Below are positions 164 to 32,872 of a stretch of DNA of 41,614 nt, piece by piece (position 1 is the first letter of the stretch; each line of letters begins with the position of its first letter). The DNA comes from Deltaproteobacteria bacterium (lineage in GTDB: Bacteria; Desulfobacterota; GWC2-55-46; UBA9637): assembly GCA_030690165.1 (NCBI GenBank), contig JAUYHF010000019.1, forward strand, positions 1 through 41,614, read 5' to 3'. Position numbers and translations under genes: made by a program. Below the pieces are notes generated by a model, which saw only the letters and a list, made by a program, of their open reading frames with translations, was not told where the DNA came from and made no database searches.

Positions 164-183
164 AGCGACATTCTGCGAATGTC

Positions 184-272
184 GAATTGCAAATTGAAGA
201 TTGTAAATTGTAAAATGCAAAATTGAATGGAACTTTAAATTTACAATTTGCACTTTCCAATCTTCATTTTAC
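184..272. repeat. Two opposed heptanucleotide repeat arrays
   Basis: Positions 184-225 read as six degenerate 7-nt units of the type AAATTGN (for example AAATTGA, AGATTGT, AAATTGT). Positions 238-272 read as five units of the reverse-complement type (AATTTAC, AATTTGC, ACTTTCC, AATCTTC, ATTTTAC). Together they form an imperfect inverted repeat of about 35-40 nt per arm between the two sugar-phosphate genes. The right arm ends just before the ribosome-binding site of the downstream gene, so a folded transcript could affect its translation. That effect is inference. Confidence 0.75.
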
Positions 273-288
273 AATGGAGCAAAGCGAC

Positions 289-1710
289 ATGAGCAGCATA
301 AAATTCGGCACGTCAGGCTGGCGCGGCATTATCGCAGAGGATTTTACTTATGAGGCCGTAAGGATCGTAACCCAGTCCATTGCAGATTACCTCAAAGCGT
401 ATCATGAGGACAAAAAAGGGATAGTGGTCGGCTATGACGCCCGCTTTATGGGCGATAGGTTTGCATCAGAGGTTGTAAGAATTCTTGCAGGAAACAACAT
501 CAAATCTTTCCTGGCAATAGGGCCGACGCCCACGCCTGCTATCTCATTTGAGATAATACGGAGAAAGGCCGGCGGCGGCATAAATATTACAGCCAGCCAC
601 AATCCGCCAGAGTATAACGGCCTGAAATTTTCCTCTCCTTCCGGCGGGCCGGCGCTCCCTGCTGTAACAAGGGAGATAGAACAGAAAGCAAATGAGATGC
701 TTTTGGAGGTTGCCTATTCAGAACTTTCCATGGCTGATGCAAGGCAAAAAAACATTTTGGAAGAGATAGCGCCGTTCTATTTTTACGCAGAAGGGCTCAG
801 GCAAAAGATAGATATGGCTGTTATAAAGAAGGCGCAGCTTGAGATCGGGGTTGACCTTATGTATGGCGCAGGCCGTGGTTATTTAGACAGGATTCTGGAA
901 GACGCAGGCTGCAACATCACAGCATTTCACAACCACACCGACCCTTCATTTGGAGGCAGGCCGCCTGATCCGAGCGAGGGAAATCTTGCAACACTGATAA
1001 AAGCGGTTAAAGAAAATGGCTGCGACCTCGGTCTTGCGCTTGACGGCGATGCAGACAGGTTTGGAATAATAGACAGGGACGGCGCATTCATTGAGCCGAA
1101 TTATATCCTTGCCATGCTTTTTGATTATATGATAAGGATAAAAGGCTTAAGCGGCGGTGTTGCAAGAAGCGTTGCCACAAGCCATCTGTCAGACGCTGTT
1201 GCAAGACATTACAATATGCCGGTCTATGAGACGCCGGTTGGTTTCAAATATATCGGCGAGCTTATCACAACAGGGAAGATTTTAATCGGAGGGGAAGAGA
1301 GCGCCGGAATTTCCATAAGGGGGCATGTCCCGGAAAAGGACGGGATACTAACCTGTCTCCTTGTAACAGAAATGGTTGCAAGGGAGGGTAAAAGCCTGAA
1401 GGAGCTGTTGAATGATTTGTATAAAAGGGTAGGCAGGCTTGTTAGCAAAAGGGAGAATGTCAGGCTTGACAATGTTTCAAGAAAAGGCATGTCTCATATG
1501 TTAAATACATCCCCAAAGACGATTGCAGGCCTTTCTGTCAAGGATGCAAAGGATATTGGAGGGGTTAAATTCCTGCTGGAGCATGGATGCTGGCTCCTTA
1601 TAAGAGAATCAGGGACAGAGCCTGTTGTGCGTCTGTATGGCGAGGCAAGGGATGAGGATGAATTGGAAAGGATTATGAAGGCCGGAAGGGAAATGGCGCT
1701 GGGAAAATGA
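289..1710 (+). CDS. Phosphoglucomutase/phosphomannomutase family protein
   Basis: This 473-residue alpha-D-phosphohexomutase should interconvert hexose 1- and 6-phosphates in the cytoplasm. All four family signatures are present: the phosphoserine loop TASHNP (Ser103), the Mg-binding loop DGDADRFG (from residue 252), the sugar-binding loop GGEESAG (from residue 334) and the phosphate-binding loop RESGTEP (from residue 439). I chose the ATG at 289 because GGAG at 276-279 lies 9 nt upstream and the family N-terminus (KFGTSGWRG) follows directly. An in-frame ATG at 274 is possible; upstream extensions would be translated repeat. The stop overlaps the next gene by 4 nt (ATGA), indicating translational coupling. 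Substrate preference (glucose, mannose or glucosamine) cannot be read from the sequence. Confidence 0.92.
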   Translation: MSSIKFGTSGWRGIIAEDFTYEAVRIVTQSIADYLKAYHEDKKGIVVGYDARFMGDRFASEVVRILAGNNIKSFLAIGPTPTPAISFEIIRRKAGGGINITASHNPPEYNGLKFSSPSGGPALPAVTREIEQKANEMLLEVAYSELSMADARQKNILEEIAPFYFYAEGLRQKIDMAVIKKAQLEIGVDLMYGAGRGYLDRILEDAGCNITAFHNHTDPSFGGRPPDPSEGNLATLIKAVKENGCDLGLALDGDADRFGIIDRDGAFIEPNYILAMLFDYMIRIKGLSGGVARSVATSHLSDAVARHYNMPVYETPVGFKYIGELITTGKILIGGEESAGISIRGHVPEKDGILTCLLVTEMVAREGKSLKELLNDLYKRVGRLVSKRENVRLDNVSRKGMSHMLNTSPKTIAGLSVKDAKDIGGVKFLLEHGCWLLIRESGTEPVVRLYGEARDEDELERIMKAGREMALGK

Positions 1711-26212: not shown

Positions 26213-29200
26213 GTGTCTGTTTCTTTACAAGATAACACCTTTTACAAAACTTTAGAGGCTATATCAACTCTTAAGTCAGGGCAGAGGTTTGTGCTTTCCG
26301 GCCTTTTGGGTTCGTCAAAGGCCTTTTTTATTGCCTCTCTGGTGGGTAAGGGCGTAATGCCTTACGCCCCTACTACTAACTCCGAACCCAGAACTGTTCT
26401 CATCATTACACCAACTCAGGAAGAGGCGGAGAATTTTACAAAAGATATAAACTTCTTCCTCGGAAAAAAGACAGCCTTTTTCTATCCTTCATGGGAGATT
26501 TTGCCATTTGAGAGCCAATCTCCGCATCCGGATATAATCGCCGCAAGAATAGATATTCTCCACAAACTTGCCCACGGACATCACAATATAATTGTCACAA
26601 CGCCTTCAGCCATTATGCAAAGGGTTATACCAAAGGGCGTCTTAATATCTTCTGTTCAAAGGTTTGAAGTTGGAATGGAAGTGAACAGGGACGAGATATT
26701 GCAAAGGCTTTTACAAATTGGTTACTCAAGGACAGGCTTAGTTGAAGAAAAAGGAGAGATGAGGGTTGCCGGCGGGATTTTAGATATTTTCCCTCCGTCA
26801 TATTCCGCTCCTGTCAGGATTGAATTTTTTGGAGATGAAATTGAGAGTATCAGGACATTTGAAAGCGCAACCCAGAGGTCAAAAGAAGATTTGAAAGAGG
26901 CTGTAATCCTGCCTGCAAAAGAGATTATCTTTTCAAAAAATGTAAATGAGATGGCGCTGGATAAGCTCAGAAAAAGGGCTGATGAACTGGAGCTTCCAAA
27001 GGATGTAAGAGAGTCTATTTCTGACAGAATACGGGATGGGCTGGTCTTTGCCGGTATTGATTTTCTTTCGCCTCTTTTTTACGGAAGACTTGACACGCTG
27101 TTTGATTATCTTCCTAAAGATTGCCTGCTCTTTCTCAACAACCTAAATGAGATAGAGGAGGCCGGGAGAGGGTTTGAAAATGAGGTGTCGGATGGGAGAA
27201 TAAAGATTGAAGAGAAAAGGCAGTTTTTTGTAAAGCCGGAAGAGTTTTATATGGATGTAATGGAGTTTAAGTCTGGATTTGAAAAAATGGGCACGGTTGT
27301 AATGGAGGCGTCAATTCCCCCCAGCCCCCATTTGATAGACAAGGGGGTTACAAATTCGTGTGAATTTTCTACACAGTCCAATCTTGACATAAGACAGGAC
27401 ATTGCAACCCCCCTCCCTACCCTCCCCCGCACGGGGGGAGGGGAAGGGGTGGGGGTTCTTAAGCCATTAGTCGATAAGATGAAAGACTGGCATGACCTTG
27501 GGTGGAGCGTATTTATTGTCTGCCATACGACAGGGCAAGCGGAGAGGTTGAAGGAGTTACTGGAGGGGTATAATCTGATTGTGGATTGCAGATTGCAGAT
27601 TGCAGATTTAAAATCCCAGATCCCAGATCCCACATCCCACATCCCAATAATCATCGGCGATTTAAGTTCCGGCTTTCGTTTCCCATCCATAAAATTAGCC
27701 GTCATAACAGAAGAGGAAATCTTCGGACAAAAGGTAAAAAGACGGCCGCCGCCTTCCCATAAAATAGACGCCTTCCTTACCCAATTGCAGGATTTAAATA
27801 TCGGAGACTTTATTGTTCATACCATTCACGGAATCGGTATTTATCAGGGGCTTAAGAGGCTTAAGATAGAGGATATAGAAAATGATTTTCTCCTTCTGGA
27901 GTATCAGGGGGGAGATAAATTATACCTGCCTGTCCAGAGACTGCATCTTGTGGGCAAATACCGCGGTGTAGAAGGCAAAAAACCGGAAATAGATAAGCTT
28001 GGCTCTACAAGGTGGGAGAAGACCAAAGGCAGGGTAAAGAAGATTGCAGAGGAGATGGCAAAGGGATTGCTGGAGCTATATGCGGCAAGAAAGGTTGTTG
28101 AAGGGTTTTCTTTTTCAGGAGGGGACAGGCTTTTTTCAGAGTTTGAGGCGTCTTTTGAATATGACGAAACCCCGGACCAGCTAAGCGCCATTGAGGATGT
28201 GCTAAAGGATATGGAAGAGCCCAGGCCAATGGACAGGCTTATCTGCGGCGATGTCGGATATGGAAAGACCGAGGTTGCTATGAGGGCTGCATTCAAGGCT
28301 GTTCTGGATAACAGGCAGGTGGCAGTGCTTGTGCCTACCACATTACTTGCGCAACAACACTATCTTACCTTCAAAAACAGATTTGCCGCATACCCTGTGA
28401 CTATAGAGGTATTGAGCCGCTTTAGAAGCCCTAAGGAGCAGAAATATATTTTAAAAAAGCTTGCCAATGGCGAGGTGGATATAATCATCGGCACTCACAG
28501 GCTTTTGCAAAAGGATGTTGTAGTGAAGGATTTGGGGCTCATTATTGTTGACGAGGAGCACAGATTTGGCGTGAGCCACAAGGAGAGACTAAAGCAGATG
28601 AAAAGGCAGGTGGATGTCCTGACATTGACCGCAACACCAATCCCAAGAACCCTCCATATGTCTCTTGCAGGCATAAGGGATTTGAGCATAATAAATACGC
28701 CGCCTGAAGACAGGCTTGCCATAAAAACCTTGGTTGCAAGATTTGATGATGAACTGATAAGGAATGCTGTAAGAAGGGAACTTGCCAGAGGCGGCCAGGT
28801 ATTTTTTGTCCACAACAGGGTAGAGAGTATAGCGGCAATGGCTGATTATCTCAAAAGGCTTGTCCCTGAGGCGAGGGTTGCGGTTGCCCACGGCCAGATG
28901 AAGGAAAAGGGGCTTGAGAAGGTAATGGCAGACTTTATAAATAAAGGATACGACATTCTGCTTTCCACATCCATTATAGAATCAGGACTTGATATACCGT
29001 CTGCGAATACAATTCTCATAAACAGGGCTGACAGGTTCGGCCTTGCGGAAATTTATCAATTGCGCGGAAGGGTTGGCAGAAGCAGCCATAAGGCATATGC
29101 CTATCTTCTGACGCCGCCTGAATTGATATTGGCAGGGGATGCAAAGAAAAGACTGAAGGTGCTTCAGGAACTCTCTGACCTCGGCGCCGGTTTCAGGCTT

Positions 29201-29782
29201 GCCGCACATGATCTGGAGATAAGGGGCGCCGGGGAACTCCTCGGAGCCAAACAATCAGGCCAGATTGCAGAGGTTGGTTTTGAGATGTATACGCAGCTTC
29301 TGGAAGATGCCATAAAAGAGCTAAAAGGCGAAAATATAGAAAAAGAGATTGAGCCTGAGATAAATCTCAGGGTGTCTGCATATATCCCTGAAAATTATAT
29401 CCCTGATGAGAGGCAGAGGCTCTTTATCTATAAAAGGATTGCCACAGCGGCATCTGAGGACGGGATATCTGCGCTAAAAGAGGAACTTATAGATAGGTTT
29501 GGGGATATACCTGAGCTGCTGAATAACTTATTCAGAATTGCGGGTTTGAAATTGCTGTTAAAAAAACTTAAGATAACCGAGCTTTCTCAAAAAGGGGACT
29601 ACCTTTATATAACATTCTCCAATGATACTGCTGTGTCGCCGCAAAAGCTGCTTCAACTTGTAAAAAAGAATCCAAAAAGGTTCAAACTTACGCCGGACTC
29701 AAAATTCATTGTTCTTATAGAAAAAGGGAAGGAAATCTGGGAGGAGGCAAGATATATATTGCAACAGATGATAACAGGGTGA
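26213..29782 (+). CDS. mfd: Transcription-repair coupling factor Mfd
   Basis: This 1189-residue ATP-dependent translocase removes stalled RNA polymerase and recruits UvrA. It has a UvrB-like N-terminal part, an RNA-polymerase-interaction domain (IGDFIVHTIHGIGIYQG, residue about 530), helicase motifs GDVGYGKTE (about 677), DEEHRFG (about 780), TATPIPRTL and QLRGRVGRS, and a C-terminal TRCF domain. It starts with GTG at 26213. Three blocks of translated repetitive DNA interrupt the N-terminal part: residues about 46-62, 367-418 and 458-479. Their composition (PLPTLPRTGGGEG, QIADLKSQIPDPTSHIP) is low-complexity. All keep the frame, and downstream motifs are intact, so the protein is presumably functional. 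Confidence 0.95.
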   Translation: MSVSLQDNTFYKTLEAISTLKSGQRFVLSGLLGSSKAFFIASLVGKGVMPYAPTTNSEPRTVLIITPTQEEAENFTKDINFFLGKKTAFFYPSWEILPFESQSPHPDIIAARIDILHKLAHGHHNIIVTTPSAIMQRVIPKGVLISSVQRFEVGMEVNRDEILQRLLQIGYSRTGLVEEKGEMRVAGGILDIFPPSYSAPVRIEFFGDEIESIRTFESATQRSKEDLKEAVILPAKEIIFSKNVNEMALDKLRKRADELELPKDVRESISDRIRDGLVFAGIDFLSPLFYGRLDTLFDYLPKDCLLFLNNLNEIEEAGRGFENEVSDGRIKIEEKRQFFVKPEEFYMDVMEFKSGFEKMGTVVMEASIPPSPHLIDKGVTNSCEFSTQSNLDIRQDIATPLPTLPRTGGGEGVGVLKPLVDKMKDWHDLGWSVFIVCHTTGQAERLKELLEGYNLIVDCRLQIADLKSQIPDPTSHIPIIIGDLSSGFRFPSIKLAVITEEEIFGQKVKRRPPPSHKIDAFLTQLQDLNIGDFIVHTIHGIGIYQGLKRLKIEDIENDFLLLEYQGGDKLYLPVQRLHLVGKYRGVEGKKPEIDKLGSTRWEKTKGRVKKIAEEMAKGLLELYAARKVVEGFSFSGGDRLFSEFEASFEYDETPDQLSAIEDVLKDMEEPRPMDRLICGDVGYGKTEVAMRAAFKAVLDNRQVAVLVPTTLLAQQHYLTFKNRFAAYPVTIEVLSRFRSPKEQKYILKKLANGEVDIIIGTHRLLQKDVVVKDLGLIIVDEEHRFGVSHKERLKQMKRQVDVLTLTATPIPRTLHMSLAGIRDLSIINTPPEDRLAIKTLVARFDDELIRNAVRRELARGGQVFFVHNRVESIAAMADYLKRLVPEARVAVAHGQMKEKGLEKVMADFINKGYDILLSTSIIESGLDIPSANTILINRADRFGLAEIYQLRGRVGRSSHKAYAYLLTPPELILAGDAKKRLKVLQELSDLGAGFRLAAHDLEIRGAGELLGAKQSGQIAEVGFEMYTQLLEDAIKELKGENIEKEIEPEINLRVSAYIPENYIPDERQRLFIYKRIATAASEDGISALKEELIDRFGDIPELLNNLFRIAGLKLLLKKLKITELSQKGDYLYITFSNDTAVSPQKLLQLVKKNPKRFKLTPDSKFIVLIEKGKEIWEEARYILQQMITG
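26350..26398. repeat. Foldback plus heptamers inside mfd (block 1)
   Basis: GGGCGTAA (26350-26357) and TTACGCCC (26362-26369) form a perfect 8-bp hairpin with a 4-nt loop. Three heptamers, AACTCCG, AACCCAG and AACTGTT, follow at 26378-26398. All are translated in frame. Confidence 0.7.
27325..27457. repeat. Cluster of foldback elements inside mfd (block 2)
   Basis: Three hairpins follow each other. CCCCC (27325-27329) pairs with GGGGG (27343-27347). AAATTC (27352-27357) pairs with GAATTT (27362-27367) around GTGT. A G/C-tract foldback at 27406-27457 has CCTCCCCC (27421-27428) opposite GGGGGAGG (27434-27441) and outer C and G tracts. The last resembles the CCCTCTCCC/GGGAGAGGG palindromes dispersed in many genomes. 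Confidence 0.7.
27584..27647 (+). repeat. Two heptanucleotide arrays inside mfd (block 3)
   Basis: GATTGCA is repeated three times at 27584-27604, and ATCCCAN five times at 27613-27647 (ATCCCAG, ATCCCAG, ATCCCAC, ATCCCAC, ATCCCAA). Both have a 7-nt unit, so each unit is read in a different frame. Confidence 0.85.
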
Positions 29783-29800: not shown

Positions 29801-30838
29801 ATGAAAATGAGGGAACAGGTGGAAAAGGTAAAAAATAAAAGAAAAGAGGCAGCTGCATATTTCAGCCTGCATCAGTTTTGCAATCAGAAACTTGCGACTG
29901 CCTGTTTGCTGCTCGCTCTTTGCTGCCTGCTGTTTATTGCGGGTTGTAAGAGACAGGAAGAGGAAAAGGCAAAGGCCGTTTCTCCAACTGATGTGGCGAT
30001 AAGGATAGGTGACAGGGAGATTAGCCATGGAGAATTTCAGGATACATTCAAAAGATTATTTCTTGAAGGAGAAGAGGCTGCCGAGGTTAAAAATGAGGAG
30101 CTAAAAAATCTCAAAATAGACCTTGTTAATCAGCTTGTTGAAGAGGAATTGATTCTGGAAGAGGCAAAGAGGCTGGCAATAGATGTTAAGGATAATGATG
30201 TTTTTAAAGAGATGGAAGAAATAAAAAAAGAATACGATGGAGACACATTTGAATCAACCATCATGAATAAATATGGAAGCATAAATAAATGGAAGGAAGA
30301 GATTAGAAAGAAGTTATTGATTAAAAAGGTTATAGATAAAATTATTACTCCCATGATTATCGTTAAAGAGGGCGAGGCCCAAAGATACTATAAAGAACAT
30401 ATAACAGATTATAATAGGAAAGAACAGGCAAGGGCCAGGATGATTGTGGTAAAGACAGAAGAAGAGGCAAACAGTGTGAGGGAAAGGTTGAAAAGAGGGG
30501 AAGGATTTGCAAGGATTGCGCAGGAGGTTTCATTAAGCCCTGAAGGTAAGAGGGGTGGAGACCTCGGTTTTTTTGGCAAAGGAGATATGCCAAAAGAATT
30601 TGAGGATGTGGTTTTCTCTTTGCCGCCCGGCAAAATAAGCGATGTGATAAAAACTGTATACGGCTATCATATTTTCAGGGTTGAAGAAAAAAGGGGCGCA
30701 ATGGATCTAAAATTTTCAGAGGTAAAAGACCAGATAATGAATAAGTTAAAGAGAGAAAAGAGCGACATGGAATTTCAAACATGGATGAGGGAATTAAAGC
30801 AAAAGACAAGGATAGAGGTGAAGGAGGAACTATTGTGA
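29801..30838 (+). CDS. PpiC-type peptidyl-prolyl isomerase lipoprotein
   Basis: This 345-residue envelope protein has a lipobox (LLFIAGC, Cys49), a SurA-like N-terminal helical region (residues about 60-190) and a parvulin domain (residues about 210-305, with RARMIVVKTEEEA, GGDLGFFGKGDMP and GYHIFRVEE). It should fold or chaperone proteins crossing the periplasm. The stretch before the lipobox is unusually long, about 30 residues and basic; the ATG at 29807 is an alternative start. The hydrophobic core is encoded by degenerate heptamers. It overlaps surA by 4 nt (GTGA) and lies 18 nt after mfd. Confidence 0.88.
   Translation: MKMREQVEKVKNKRKEAAAYFSLHQFCNQKLATACLLLALCCLLFIAGCKRQEEEKAKAVSPTDVAIRIGDREISHGEFQDTFKRLFLEGEEAAEVKNEELKNLKIDLVNQLVEEELILEEAKRLAIDVKDNDVFKEMEEIKKEYDGDTFESTIMNKYGSINKWKEEIRKKLLIKKVIDKIITPMIIVKEGEAQRYYKEHITDYNRKEQARARMIVVKTEEEANSVRERLKRGEGFARIAQEVSLSPEGKRGGDLGFFGKGDMPKEFEDVVFSLPPGKISDVIKTVYGYHIFRVEEKRGAMDLKFSEVKDQIMNKLKREKSDMEFQTWMRELKQKTRIEVKEELL
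29903..29937 (+). repeat. Degenerate heptamer array encoding the PpiC signal core
   Basis: Five consecutive 7-nt units (TGTTTGC, TGCTCGC, TCTTTGC, TGCCTGC, TGTTTAT) encode the hydrophobic CLLLALCCLLFI part of the lipoprotein signal. Confidence 0.65.
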
Positions 30839-31818
30839 AAACAATTGCAGATTGCAGATTGCAGATTGCAAATTTTAAATCTCAAGCCTGCTTACTGTTT
30901 ACTGCATACTGCTTACTGCTTACTCCAGTCCATGCCGAGATTGCAGACAGGATAGTGGCTGTGGTGAATGACAGCGCTATTACCTTATCTGAACTGAATA
31001 TTGCCACTGCCGGACTTGGAGATATAAAGGGAGATGACAAAGAGAAAAGAAAAAAGATTATTGAAACAAAAAGCAAGGTGTTAGACCAGCTTATTGAGAA
31101 AAAACTGGTTGAACAGGCGGCAAATAAAGCAGGCATTACTGTTAGTGAAAAAGAGATAGACAATACAATTGAAGATGTGAAGAGGCAAAACAACATAGGT
31201 CAGGAAGATCTATTAAGCGCGCTCGCAAAAAATGGCCTTACATTTAAGGAATACCGCGGGCAGCTTAAAGACCAGATCAGGCAGGTAAAATTTATAAATA
31301 AAGAATTCCGGACAAATGTAAAGGTCTCTGATGAGGATGTAGTATCGTATTACAAACAAAATCAGGATAAATTTTCGGGCCCGGCGGTGTACAGAATCAG
31401 GATAATATCATTTCTCTTAAGCGGGCAAGACAAAGGAAAAGACGCGGAGAAAAAGGCAAAAGATATCCTTGCCATGGCCCAAAAAGGCGCAGATTTTGCA
31501 AAACTGGCTTTGGCCTATTCGGATGGGCCGAACGTCAAAGATGGCGGAGACCTTGGCTATATCAGTCCGGGCGAAATGGATGCGGCAGTGGAAAAAGCCG
31601 CAGGCGGATTAAATATCGGCGAAATAAGCGATGTAATAAAGACCCCCGCAGGGTTTCACATAATACAACTTATAGACAGGCGAAAGGCAGAGCCAAAACC
31701 TATTGCAGCGGTTCTTGACGAGATTAAAAATATTATCTTCCAAAAGATTATAGATGAAAGATACAAACTCTGGCTGGAAGAGATTATGAAAAAGGCATAT
31801 ATAGAGGTGAGACTATAG
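30835..31818 (+). CDS. surA: SurA-like periplasmic chaperone / peptidyl-prolyl isomerase
   Basis: This 327-residue protein has a signal peptide cleaved near PVHA, then EIADRIVAVVNDSAITLSEL, the SurA N-terminal motif. One parvulin domain follows (residues about 190-290, with GPNVKDGGDLGYISPGEM and GFHIIQLIDR). SurA assists outer-membrane protein assembly. I chose GTG 30835 because AAGGAGG lies 7 nt upstream and its GTGA overlaps the ppiC stop. The whole signal peptide is encoded by two heptanucleotide arrays. Only one parvulin domain is present, against two in E. coli SurA. Confidence 0.88.
   Translation: MKTIADCRLQIANFKSQACLLFTAYCLLLTPVHAEIADRIVAVVNDSAITLSELNIATAGLGDIKGDDKEKRKKIIETKSKVLDQLIEKKLVEQAANKAGITVSEKEIDNTIEDVKRQNNIGQEDLLSALAKNGLTFKEYRGQLKDQIRQVKFINKEFRTNVKVSDEDVVSYYKQNQDKFSGPAVYRIRIISFLLSGQDKGKDAEKKAKDILAMAQKGADFAKLALAYSDGPNVKDGGDLGYISPGEMDAAVEKAAGGLNIGEISDVIKTPAGFHIIQLIDRRKAEPKPIAAVLDEIKNIIFQKIIDERYKLWLEEIMKKAYIEVRL
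30844..30925 (+). repeat. Two heptamer arrays encoding the SurA signal peptide
   Basis: ATTGCAG is repeated three times plus ATTGCAA at 30844-30871. The five units CTTACTG, TTTACTG, CATACTG, CTTACTG and CTTACTC follow at 30891-30925. They translate to ADCRLQIANFK and CLLFTAYCLLLTP, the n-region and hydrophobic core of the signal. Confidence 0.85.
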
Positions 31819-31822
31819 AAAC

Positions 31823-31907
31823 AGGTTGAGGTTAAGATTTAGGTTGAGAATATGTTAGTTCTAAATTGCATTGCTGCCTTAACCTTAACCTTAACCTTAG
31901 CCTTAAC
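31823..31907. repeat. Inverted telomere-like hexamer arrays between surA and pdxA
   Basis: Four degenerate units (AGGTTG, AGGTTA, AGATTT, AGGTTG) lie at 31823-31846. Five CTTAAC-type units (one CTTAGC) lie at 31878-31907. The two arrays are reverse complements and could fold into a long imperfect hairpin with about a 30-nt loop. The right array ends 11 nt before the pdxA ATG and takes up the place of a ribosome-binding site; no Shine-Dalgarno is visible there. Confidence 0.75.
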
Positions 31908-31918
31908 CTTTTCCCCGT

Positions 31919-32872
31919 ATGAAGCCAACCATAGCAATTACCATGGGCGACCCGACCGGGGTTGGACCCGAGGTTGTCTTAAAGGCCCTTGCGGATAAAA
32001 AGGTTAGGCGGCTTTGCAATCCTGTGATTCTGGGCGATGAGGCGGTCCTCAGATTTATAAGCGCAAAATGCAAATTGCAAAATGCAAATTGCAAAATAAT
32101 AAACCTCTCGAATCTCAATTCTAAGAAACTAAAACCCGGAAGACCTGATAATGCCTGTGCAAAAGCCATGATGAAATATATAGAAGAGGCTGTGCGCATG
32201 GCAATGAGCGGCGCTGCAGATGCAATTGTTACGGGTCCTATAAGCAAAGAGGCTATAAATAAGGCAGGATATGATTTTCACGGCCACACAGAATTCCTTG
32301 CGCATCTTACAAAAACAAAAGACTTCTGCATGATGCTTGCAGGTAAAAGCCTTAAGGTTATTCTTGTAACCATCCACGAATCCATAAAGAATGTTCCGCA
32401 GCTTTTGACAAAAGAAAATGTTTTCAAGACCATAAAGATAACAGACGATTCATTTAAAAAATATTTTGGCTTTCAAAGGCCGAGGATTGCAGTAGCTGCC
32501 CTTAATCCCCATGCGGGTGAAGGAGGTCTTTTTGGAGACGAAGAAAAATGGATTATAATCCCTGCCGTGAAGAAGGCAAGGCAGATGGGTGTAAATGCTT
32601 CAGGCCCCTTGCCGCCGGATACGCTTTTTTACAGGGCTGTAAGGAATAAAGAATTTGACGGCATTGTCTGTATGTATCATGACCAAGGGCTTATTCCGCT
32701 GAAACTTTTACATTTTGAAGATGGCGTCAATATTACCCTTGGCCTGCCCATTATCCGCACATCCGTTGACCACGGGACAGCCTATGATATTGCATGGAAA
32801 GGTATAGCAAACCCGGCAAGTATGATGGCTGCTATAAAGATGGCGGTGGAGATGTCAAGGAATAAATTTTAA
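31919..32872 (+). CDS. pdxA: 4-hydroxythreonine-4-phosphate dehydrogenase PdxA
   Basis: This 317-residue NAD-dependent enzyme of pyridoxal 5'-phosphate synthesis has the family start AITMGDPTGVGPE. Metal-binding His residues are in FHGHTEFLA, CMYHDQGLIP and TSVDHGTAYDIAWKG, and AALNPHAGEGG is present. The segment AKCKLQNANCKIINLSNLNS (residues about 48-67) is encoded by a heptamer array and lies in a surface region between core strands. The 3' end overlaps the convergent fhs gene by 18 nt. Confidence 0.94.
   Translation: MKPTIAITMGDPTGVGPEVVLKALADKKVRRLCNPVILGDEAVLRFISAKCKLQNANCKIINLSNLNSKKLKPGRPDNACAKAMMKYIEEAVRMAMSGAADAIVTGPISKEAINKAGYDFHGHTEFLAHLTKTKDFCMMLAGKSLKVILVTIHESIKNVPQLLTKENVFKTIKITDDSFKKYFGFQRPRIAVAALNPHAGEGGLFGDEEKWIIIPAVKKARQMGVNASGPLPPDTLFYRAVRNKEFDGIVCMYHDQGLIPLKLLHFEDGVNITLGLPIIRTSVDHGTAYDIAWKGIANPASMMAAIKMAVEMSRNKF
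32063..32097 (+). repeat. Heptamer array inside pdxA
   Basis: Five units alternate GCAAAAT, GCAAATT, GCAAAAT, GCAAATT, GCAAAAT. The array is translated in frame and adds Lys/Asn/Cys-rich sequence to PdxA. Confidence 0.85.

Follow-up and report, generated by a model that had tools for sequence, protein, structure and literature searches.

The locus studied here raises the question of where the signal peptide of a conserved exported protein can come from. In the window, a stretch of 41,614 nucleotides that is contig C19 of the 2.2 Mb genome G000, two adjacent genes encode PPIase chaperones, and the start of surA, a GTG at 30835, overlaps the stop of ppiC (GTGA). The initial annotation had proposed that the signals of both proteins are built from 7-nt DNA repeats of a CTTACTG type, and that repeat expansion can create or replace signal peptides. 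Sec signal peptides (SPI/SPII) have a basic n-region, an uncharged hydrophobic core and an AxA motif or a lipobox; they are very permissive, and the origin of new ones is an open question. To our knowledge, there are few natural cases in which conserved core genes have had their signals replaced wholesale and repeatedly. The features of the window considered below are:

180..290, strand not assigned: intergenic heptamer dyad, ATTGCAA/ATTGTAA ... TTTACAATTTGCA (fold z=-4.4; TRF)
27577..27646, + strand: heptamer dyad (GATTGCA)n taaa (ATCCCAC)n, in frame within the mfd-like long ORF 26213-29782
29801..30838, + strand: ppiC-like gene for a lipoprotein PPIase (Pfam Rotamase, SurA_N_3)
29891..29949, + strand: PpiC hydrophobic core and lipobox (LATACLLLALCCLLFIAGC), degenerate 7-periodic DNA, weak alone (synonymous shuffle 122/5000)
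30835..31818, + strand: surA, SurA_N plus PPIC rotamase (ORF; Pfam SurA_N, Rotamase), with a start position kept in orthologues
30844..30874, + strand: heptamer array 1, (ATTGCAG)4.4 (TRF; observed count reached or exceeded in 3/5000 synonymous shuffles)
30888..30924, + strand: heptamer array 2, (CTGCTTA)5.3 (TRF; synonymous shuffle 2/5000)
30925..30939, + strand: end of the core and cleavage region, TPVHA followed after the cut by E, non-repeat (translation; AEI(I/V/A)DRIVAVVND conserved among orthologues)
31816..31915, strand not assigned: purine-first intergenic hairpin, AGGTTGA/AGGTTAA ... CCTTAACCTTAACC (RNA fold -34.0 kcal/mol, z=-5.9)
32063..32097, + strand: heptamer array (GCAAAATGCAAATT)n, in frame within the pdxA-like ORF 31919-32872 (TRF)

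Heptamer periodicity in the surA and ppiC signal regions

Both surA arrays are in frame and are placed after the GTG start and before the mature protein, the first encoding the n-region of the signal peptide, IADCRLQIANF, and the second its hydrophobic core, CLLFTAYCLLLT. The signal region contains 60 lag-7 matches, against 38.0 +/- 4.2 in synonymous re-codings, and only 18 to 25 matches at lags 5, 8, 10, 11 and 13. Since none of 5000 re-codings reached 60 and the other lags remained so low, the periodicity of this region is due neither to chance nor to codon use. Leu-rich signal peptides do lift self-similarity somewhat at every lag, but the excess in SurA is found at lags 7 and 14 and is absent at 5, 8, 10, 11 and 13, so that a coincidence of codons in a Leu-rich peptide was rejected for SurA as a practically negligible explanation.

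The ppiC signal region gave a different result. In the stretch 29903-29937, which the initial annotation had also described as heptamer-built, 17 lag-7 matches were counted where 12.7 were expected, a value equalled or exceeded in 363 of 5000 synonymous shuffles, and here coincidental codon use may be a sufficient explanation. For the wider region, 29891-29953, 122 of 5000 shuffles equalled or exceeded the observed count. Taken alone, the G000 sequence does not establish an array in this gene, and the periodicity appears weak and degenerate; we read the stretch as a degenerate array because arrays, either clean or degraded in part, are present at the matching place in orthologues. Clean arrays were observed there in G001, G002 and G007 (eight-family table). 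In the sister genome G001, MIIFCILYSVFCILLFAGC is encoded wholly by TATTCTG units; the unit is CTCTTGC in G002, and CATTCTG-like units, partly degraded, occur in G005, G006 and G007. The proposal of heptamer-built signals was thus borne out for SurA (30844-30925), and the CTTACTG-type unit describes the core of SurA, but neither its n-region, which is made of ATTGCAG, nor PpiC. In the ppiC gene of G003 (locus L002), about 100 nt are seemingly missing after the array, which may reflect gene decay, real variation or a MAG error.

Signal regions of orthologous genes

The comparison of orthologues covered the family of the window (f1), a sister family (f2), both within one groundwater "Deltaproteobacteria" order of uncultured bacteria, and other families of the class. 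In seven exported protein families (SurA, PpiC, BamA, a PilQ-like secretin lipoprotein, a second secretin, AtpF and a TolC-like protein), most f1 orthologues have array-encoded signal peptides. Array-like signal regions, taken as those with a synonymous-shuffle p<0.01, make up 38 of 50 entries of f1 in the eight-family table (32 of 42 without G000), 6 of 19 in f2 and 0 of 38 in the other families of the class, counts to be read knowing that five of the eight families (BamA, PilQ, secretin 2, AtpF and TolC-like) entered the comparison on account of an array in G000. An MBL-like control family, chosen without an array, showed none in any genome of the table. Within the table, the distribution of array-built signals is therefore restricted by lineage.

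Between species, the units of the signal peptides differ while the mature proteins align well. The SurA signal is encoded by (ATTTCAA)n and then TGCTTAC-type units in G001, by AAGTTTC-type units and then (TTGCATC)n in G003, and by (GATTTAC)n and then ACTGCTT-type units in G002, G005 and G007; units are of TCACTCA type in G008 and of ATTTCAA type in G010. No clear array was seen at the SurA signal region of G006 and G009, and SurA proteins of other families of the class have ordinary signals. Across species, the core units of SurA include ACTGCTT, ATCTTGC and ACTCATC, and the core of AtpF is built from seven different units among orthologues. The expectation that alignment would reveal shared mature proteins behind signals made of different heptamers was thus confirmed; an identical signal encoded without repeats, which the initial annotation had named as pointing to coincidental codon use, was looked for among the orthologues and none was seen. 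We attribute this turnover of units beside a conserved mature protein to the fact that signal peptides require just charge and hydrophobicity.

An assembly artefact was considered and thought unlikely, given that several groundwater assemblies, obtained independently, have in-frame arrays at corresponding positions. In G001, surA (L019:1990-2030) is apparently split by a frame change or a deletion, in which gene decay, real variation and MAG error are possible causes. AtpF, the b subunit of ATP synthase (L095:13850-14446), has in both f1 and f2 an N-terminus that resembles a signal peptide, is encoded by an array and precedes the membrane helix.

Abundance, gene class and inverted pairing of the arrays

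Heptamer arrays are abundant in the order of the window, at about 110-190 per Mb. The sampled stretches amount to about half of G000; one sample was picked from contigs with the TTACTGC unit, and an unbiased one was also analysed separately. In 1.08 Mb of G000 we found 117 lag-7 arrays, against 4-20 at lags 5, 8, 10, 11 and 13; G002 has 56 in 298 kb and G008 has 50 in 332 kb. No lag-7 array was found in 200 kb sampled from each of two control genomes of the same class, nor in shuffled sequence.

The suggestion that arrays are enriched at the 5' ends of genes for secreted proteins held true in two of the genomes analysed. In G000, an array is present in the first 120 nt of 11 of 151 predicted signal-peptide genes and of 5 of 705 cytosolic genes (Fisher 7e-6), the calls being made by a home-made charge, hydropathy and cleavage rule that a few cytosolic proteins also pass. 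The unbiased sample of G000 gave 5/84 and 2/455 for the same two classes at gene 5' ends, and G002 gave 5/40 and 2/211. In G008, which belongs to the sister family, there was no enrichment by gene class (1/52 signal-peptide and 3/203 cytosolic genes). Mean lag-7 excess over the first 105 nt is 0.0305 in signal-peptide genes and -0.0013 in cytosolic ones. The majority of signal-peptide genes are without a detectable array.

The arrays usually occur as inverted pairs with the purine-rich arm first. Among neighbouring arrays within 70 nt, purine-first (RY) and pyrimidine-first (YR) orders stand at 25:4 in G000, 13:4 in G002 and 12:0 in G008, and among pairs outside gene N-termini 39 are RY and 8 YR. 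Arms are more complementary within their own element than with the arms of other elements (11.9 vs 8.0, permutation p 0.0008). Intergenic dyads fold as hairpins, some of them with six pairs and one mismatch per heptamer, and lie mostly between genes of the same direction, in small numbers that speak neither for nor against a function as transcription terminators. For all G000 dyads the median fold z is -2.4; folding is strong in the intergenic ones and weak in the signal regions of SurA (z -0.8) and BamA (z -0.1), and for this reason we do not claim a role of mRNA structure within genes. In the window, the hairpin at 31816..31915 resembles the heptamer dyads in style but has a period of mainly 6 nt (TRF).

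Within signal peptides, the n-region, polar and basic, is the product of the purine arm, and the hydrophobic core that of the pyrimidine arm. The N-termini of SurA, PpiC, BamA, PilQ and AtpF present a basic n-region, an uncharged core and an AxA motif or lipobox, as judged by the home-made rule and by eye. An inverted pair that is purine-first on one strand is also purine-first on the other, so the encoded polarity should not depend on orientation. When 35 non-signal dyads were translated in six frames, arm 1 had a mean hydropathy of -0.56 and a mean charge of +1.23, and arm 2 values of +0.68 and +0.07. A signal-like reading was obtained in 18 of 60 open frames of these dyads, vs 1 of 57 with the arms swapped and 8% of random or shuffled segments. 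Since the tested dyads had been selected as purine-first, the contrast between the arms partly restates the genetic code; what is new in this test is that the purine-first arrangement prevails.

As for dispersed near-identical copies of the kind formed by MITEs or palindromic mobile elements (YPAL, RPE), some elements are shared between loci, but most arrays have private units, 94 being distinct among 176. Many units combine CAR with YTG on the complementary strand, such as TCAGGGG, TCAGCTA, GCAGTAA, GCAAATT and CAAGTTT, and the Beggiatoa unit TAACTGA also fits; this common grammar may hint at a generating mechanism. The CTGCTTA heptamer recurs in other families of the phylum, a 17-nt match being found in 19 of 395 genomes, and most of the arrays sampled there (L300-L329) are not part of clear signal peptides; in G230 and G423 such matches are numerous and form long near-perfect arrays.

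Origin of the array-encoded signal peptides

The explanation that we favour, and consider likely, is that dispersed heptamer hairpin elements overran the 5' ends of secreted genes in f1, and partly in f2, and rebuilt their Sec signal peptides. The elements would be short dispersed hairpins composed of two inverted heptamer arrays with the purine-rich arm first. A unit of 7 nt does not fit whole codons, so that an array would be read in three frames and yield a peptide repeat of seven residues; the CARRRNT-type purine arm would supply an n-region of polar and basic character, and the ANNNYTG-type pyrimidine arm a core rich in Leu, Ala, Cys, Phe and Ile. A stop-free insertion in either orientation could thus give an n-region followed by a core, while the cleavage site would come from a non-repeat AxA or lipobox beside the conserved mature protein. 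Elements would be tolerated at the starts of secreted genes because signals need charge and hydrophobicity and the dyad gives both in order. The hydrophobic core itself is array DNA, and in this sense the arrays have become the signal peptide. That the array-encoded peptides export their proteins is predicted from their composition, and the arrays presumably replaced an older signal. The claim that repeat expansion can create or replace signals was supported by the orthologues and by the enrichment, but requires amendment, since what is found is usually an inverted pair and not the expansion of a single unit, and both creation and replacement are read from sequence.

The alternative that elements insert anywhere but are removed from folded domains, the signal peptide being simply the most tolerant coding stretch to which the element adds nothing special, is a real possibility, toward which we are doubtful as a full account. 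It explains part of the pattern, given that arrays are common in intergenic DNA, occur inside cytosolic genes too, and that other palindromic elements are likewise found in signal peptides. Nevertheless, array DNA forms the core itself rather than filler beside it, and arrays are at least as dense at signal-peptide starts (16 in about 15 kb) as they are between genes (80 in 163 kb of intergenic DNA; 77 lie in all gene interiors). Moreover, pyrimidine arrays in signal peptides are more hydrophobic than those elsewhere (hydropathy 1.14 vs 0.42) and less laden with stops (7% vs 38%; p 2e-14). Arrays in signal peptides therefore reflect at least selection among units and positions. Tolerance and generation are compatible, and the data show selection among arrays, not export created by insertion alone. 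In the window, the cytosolic mfd-like and pdxA-like genes carry in-frame arrays (27577-27646 and 32063-32097), and tolerance thus extends beyond signal peptides.

It is also possible, though we lean against it, that the arrays are ancestral homologous microsatellites in which slippage spread point mutations, the units drifting without fresh insertion. This would agree with the presence of arrays at the matching place in most f1 genomes and with the sharing of units by related genomes, as in the case of GATTTAC in SurA of G002, G005 and G007. However, close relatives may have very different units (PpiC of G000 and G001; the seven core units of AtpF), and elements have copies at unrelated loci. 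The signal element of BamA recurs, with 95% identity over 64 nt, in an unrelated lipoprotein (L038) and, with 88% identity over 67 nt, in the signal peptide of a PilP-like protein, so named from the position of its gene before the secretin; a secretin element is 87.5% identical over 72 nt to an intergenic one. The 64-67 nt element common to the BamA, PilP and lipoprotein genes requires copying between loci. All three copies are read as predicted signal peptides with the same core frame.

A contingency device, in which 7-nt slippage shifts the frame and toggles the export of envelope proteins (phase variation), seems improbable. The unit length is indivisible by three, the arrays are close to starts, and the PilP-like copy has one unit fewer than BamA, with its n-region array in a different frame; yet the targets include the presumably essential SurA, BamA and AtpF, and such short arrays (4-5 units), many of them imperfect, are less prone to slippage. 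Even less credit is given to a misannotation of starts, by which the arrays would be 5' untranslated DNA and the proteins begin downstream: arrays do often precede cytosolic genes (25/715 within 60 nt), but SurA has no in-frame start from the arrays to V41, which is already inside the conserved DRIVAVVND, the lipoboxes of PpiC, PilQ and the lipoprotein directly continue the array-encoded core, and without their arrays these proteins would be left with no export signal.

Returning to dispersed hairpin elements as the preferred explanation, a bolder form of it would make the purine-first dyad an orientation-independent and frame-tolerant generator of Sec signals, which continually creates and swaps the export signals of essential envelope proteins wherever it is inserted at a gene start; we advance this form tentatively, giving it somewhat less than even weight. 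Its logic, from an inverted repeat in DNA through codon complementarity to a polar-then-hydrophobic property of the protein, would lend itself to an easy bench test.

Heptanucleotide arrays have been described in bacteria before: TAACTGA in Beggiatoaceae, in which repeats within genes are described as lying at the ends of the proteins (PMC4679880), GGGAATC in Xanthomonas and GGGGA(C/T)T in Nostoc (PMC4692102), and GGGACCG and MTYCTGA in Geobacter metallireducens (PMC2700814). They resemble the present arrays in their 7-nt tandem units, their mostly intergenic location and their frequent proximity to starts, and the Xanthomonas arrays often form convergent inverted pairs, as here. Nevertheless, those systems have one or a few units per genome, with regulatory or G-quadruplex roles, whereas here dozens of units encode predicted signal peptides; the term "signal peptide" is absent from the Xanthomonas and Nostoc paper (PMC4692102). 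The Yersinia YPAL/RU-2 and the Rickettsia palindromic elements are palindromic repeats fused in frame to genes, and the signal peptide of the putative exported protein YPO1552 of Yersinia is partly formed by one (reviewed in PMC2229807). These are single families of fixed sequence, with one putative protein, in contrast to essential conserved proteins affected at many loci, by many units and recurrently across species. The tandem repeats of Borgs evolve fast and reshape proteins, and repeat proteins are enriched in signal peptides (PMC9879509); however, their units are divisible by three and create disordered regions, and they do not form the signal peptide. Compared with known Sec signals, those described here are encoded by 7-nt repeat DNA, and their sequence is not conserved between congeners. 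Thus, heptamer arrays and one transposon-like element within a signal peptide were already known, and in the literature searched, which covered few subscription papers, we found no earlier report of recurrent heptamer-encoded signal peptides or of the rebuilding of essential proteins' signals by heptamer pairs.

As homologous genes of close relatives have different repeat-made signals, one can trace directly how export signals are gained, lost and swapped. In addition, gene-start callers and repeat masking may discard real signal peptides as junk.

Other palindromes were also observed in signal peptides. Another palindrome, GTAGCCGCAGGCTTTAGCCTGCG...CGCAACCTAAAGGTTGCGGCTACC, is dispersed through the genome in several copies (L033:5133, L112:12186; contigs C2, C3, C7, C45 and C62 of G000), two of which encode the signal-peptide residues VAAGFSLRL.RNLKVAAT, residues that the TolC-like leader of G010 also shows. 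Finally, palindromes reading VGIAHPT or VGITHPT (GTGGGCATTGCCCACCC type) occur in the c- or n-regions of signal peptides at loci L286, L284, L282 (TolC-like) and L007 (SurA of G008).
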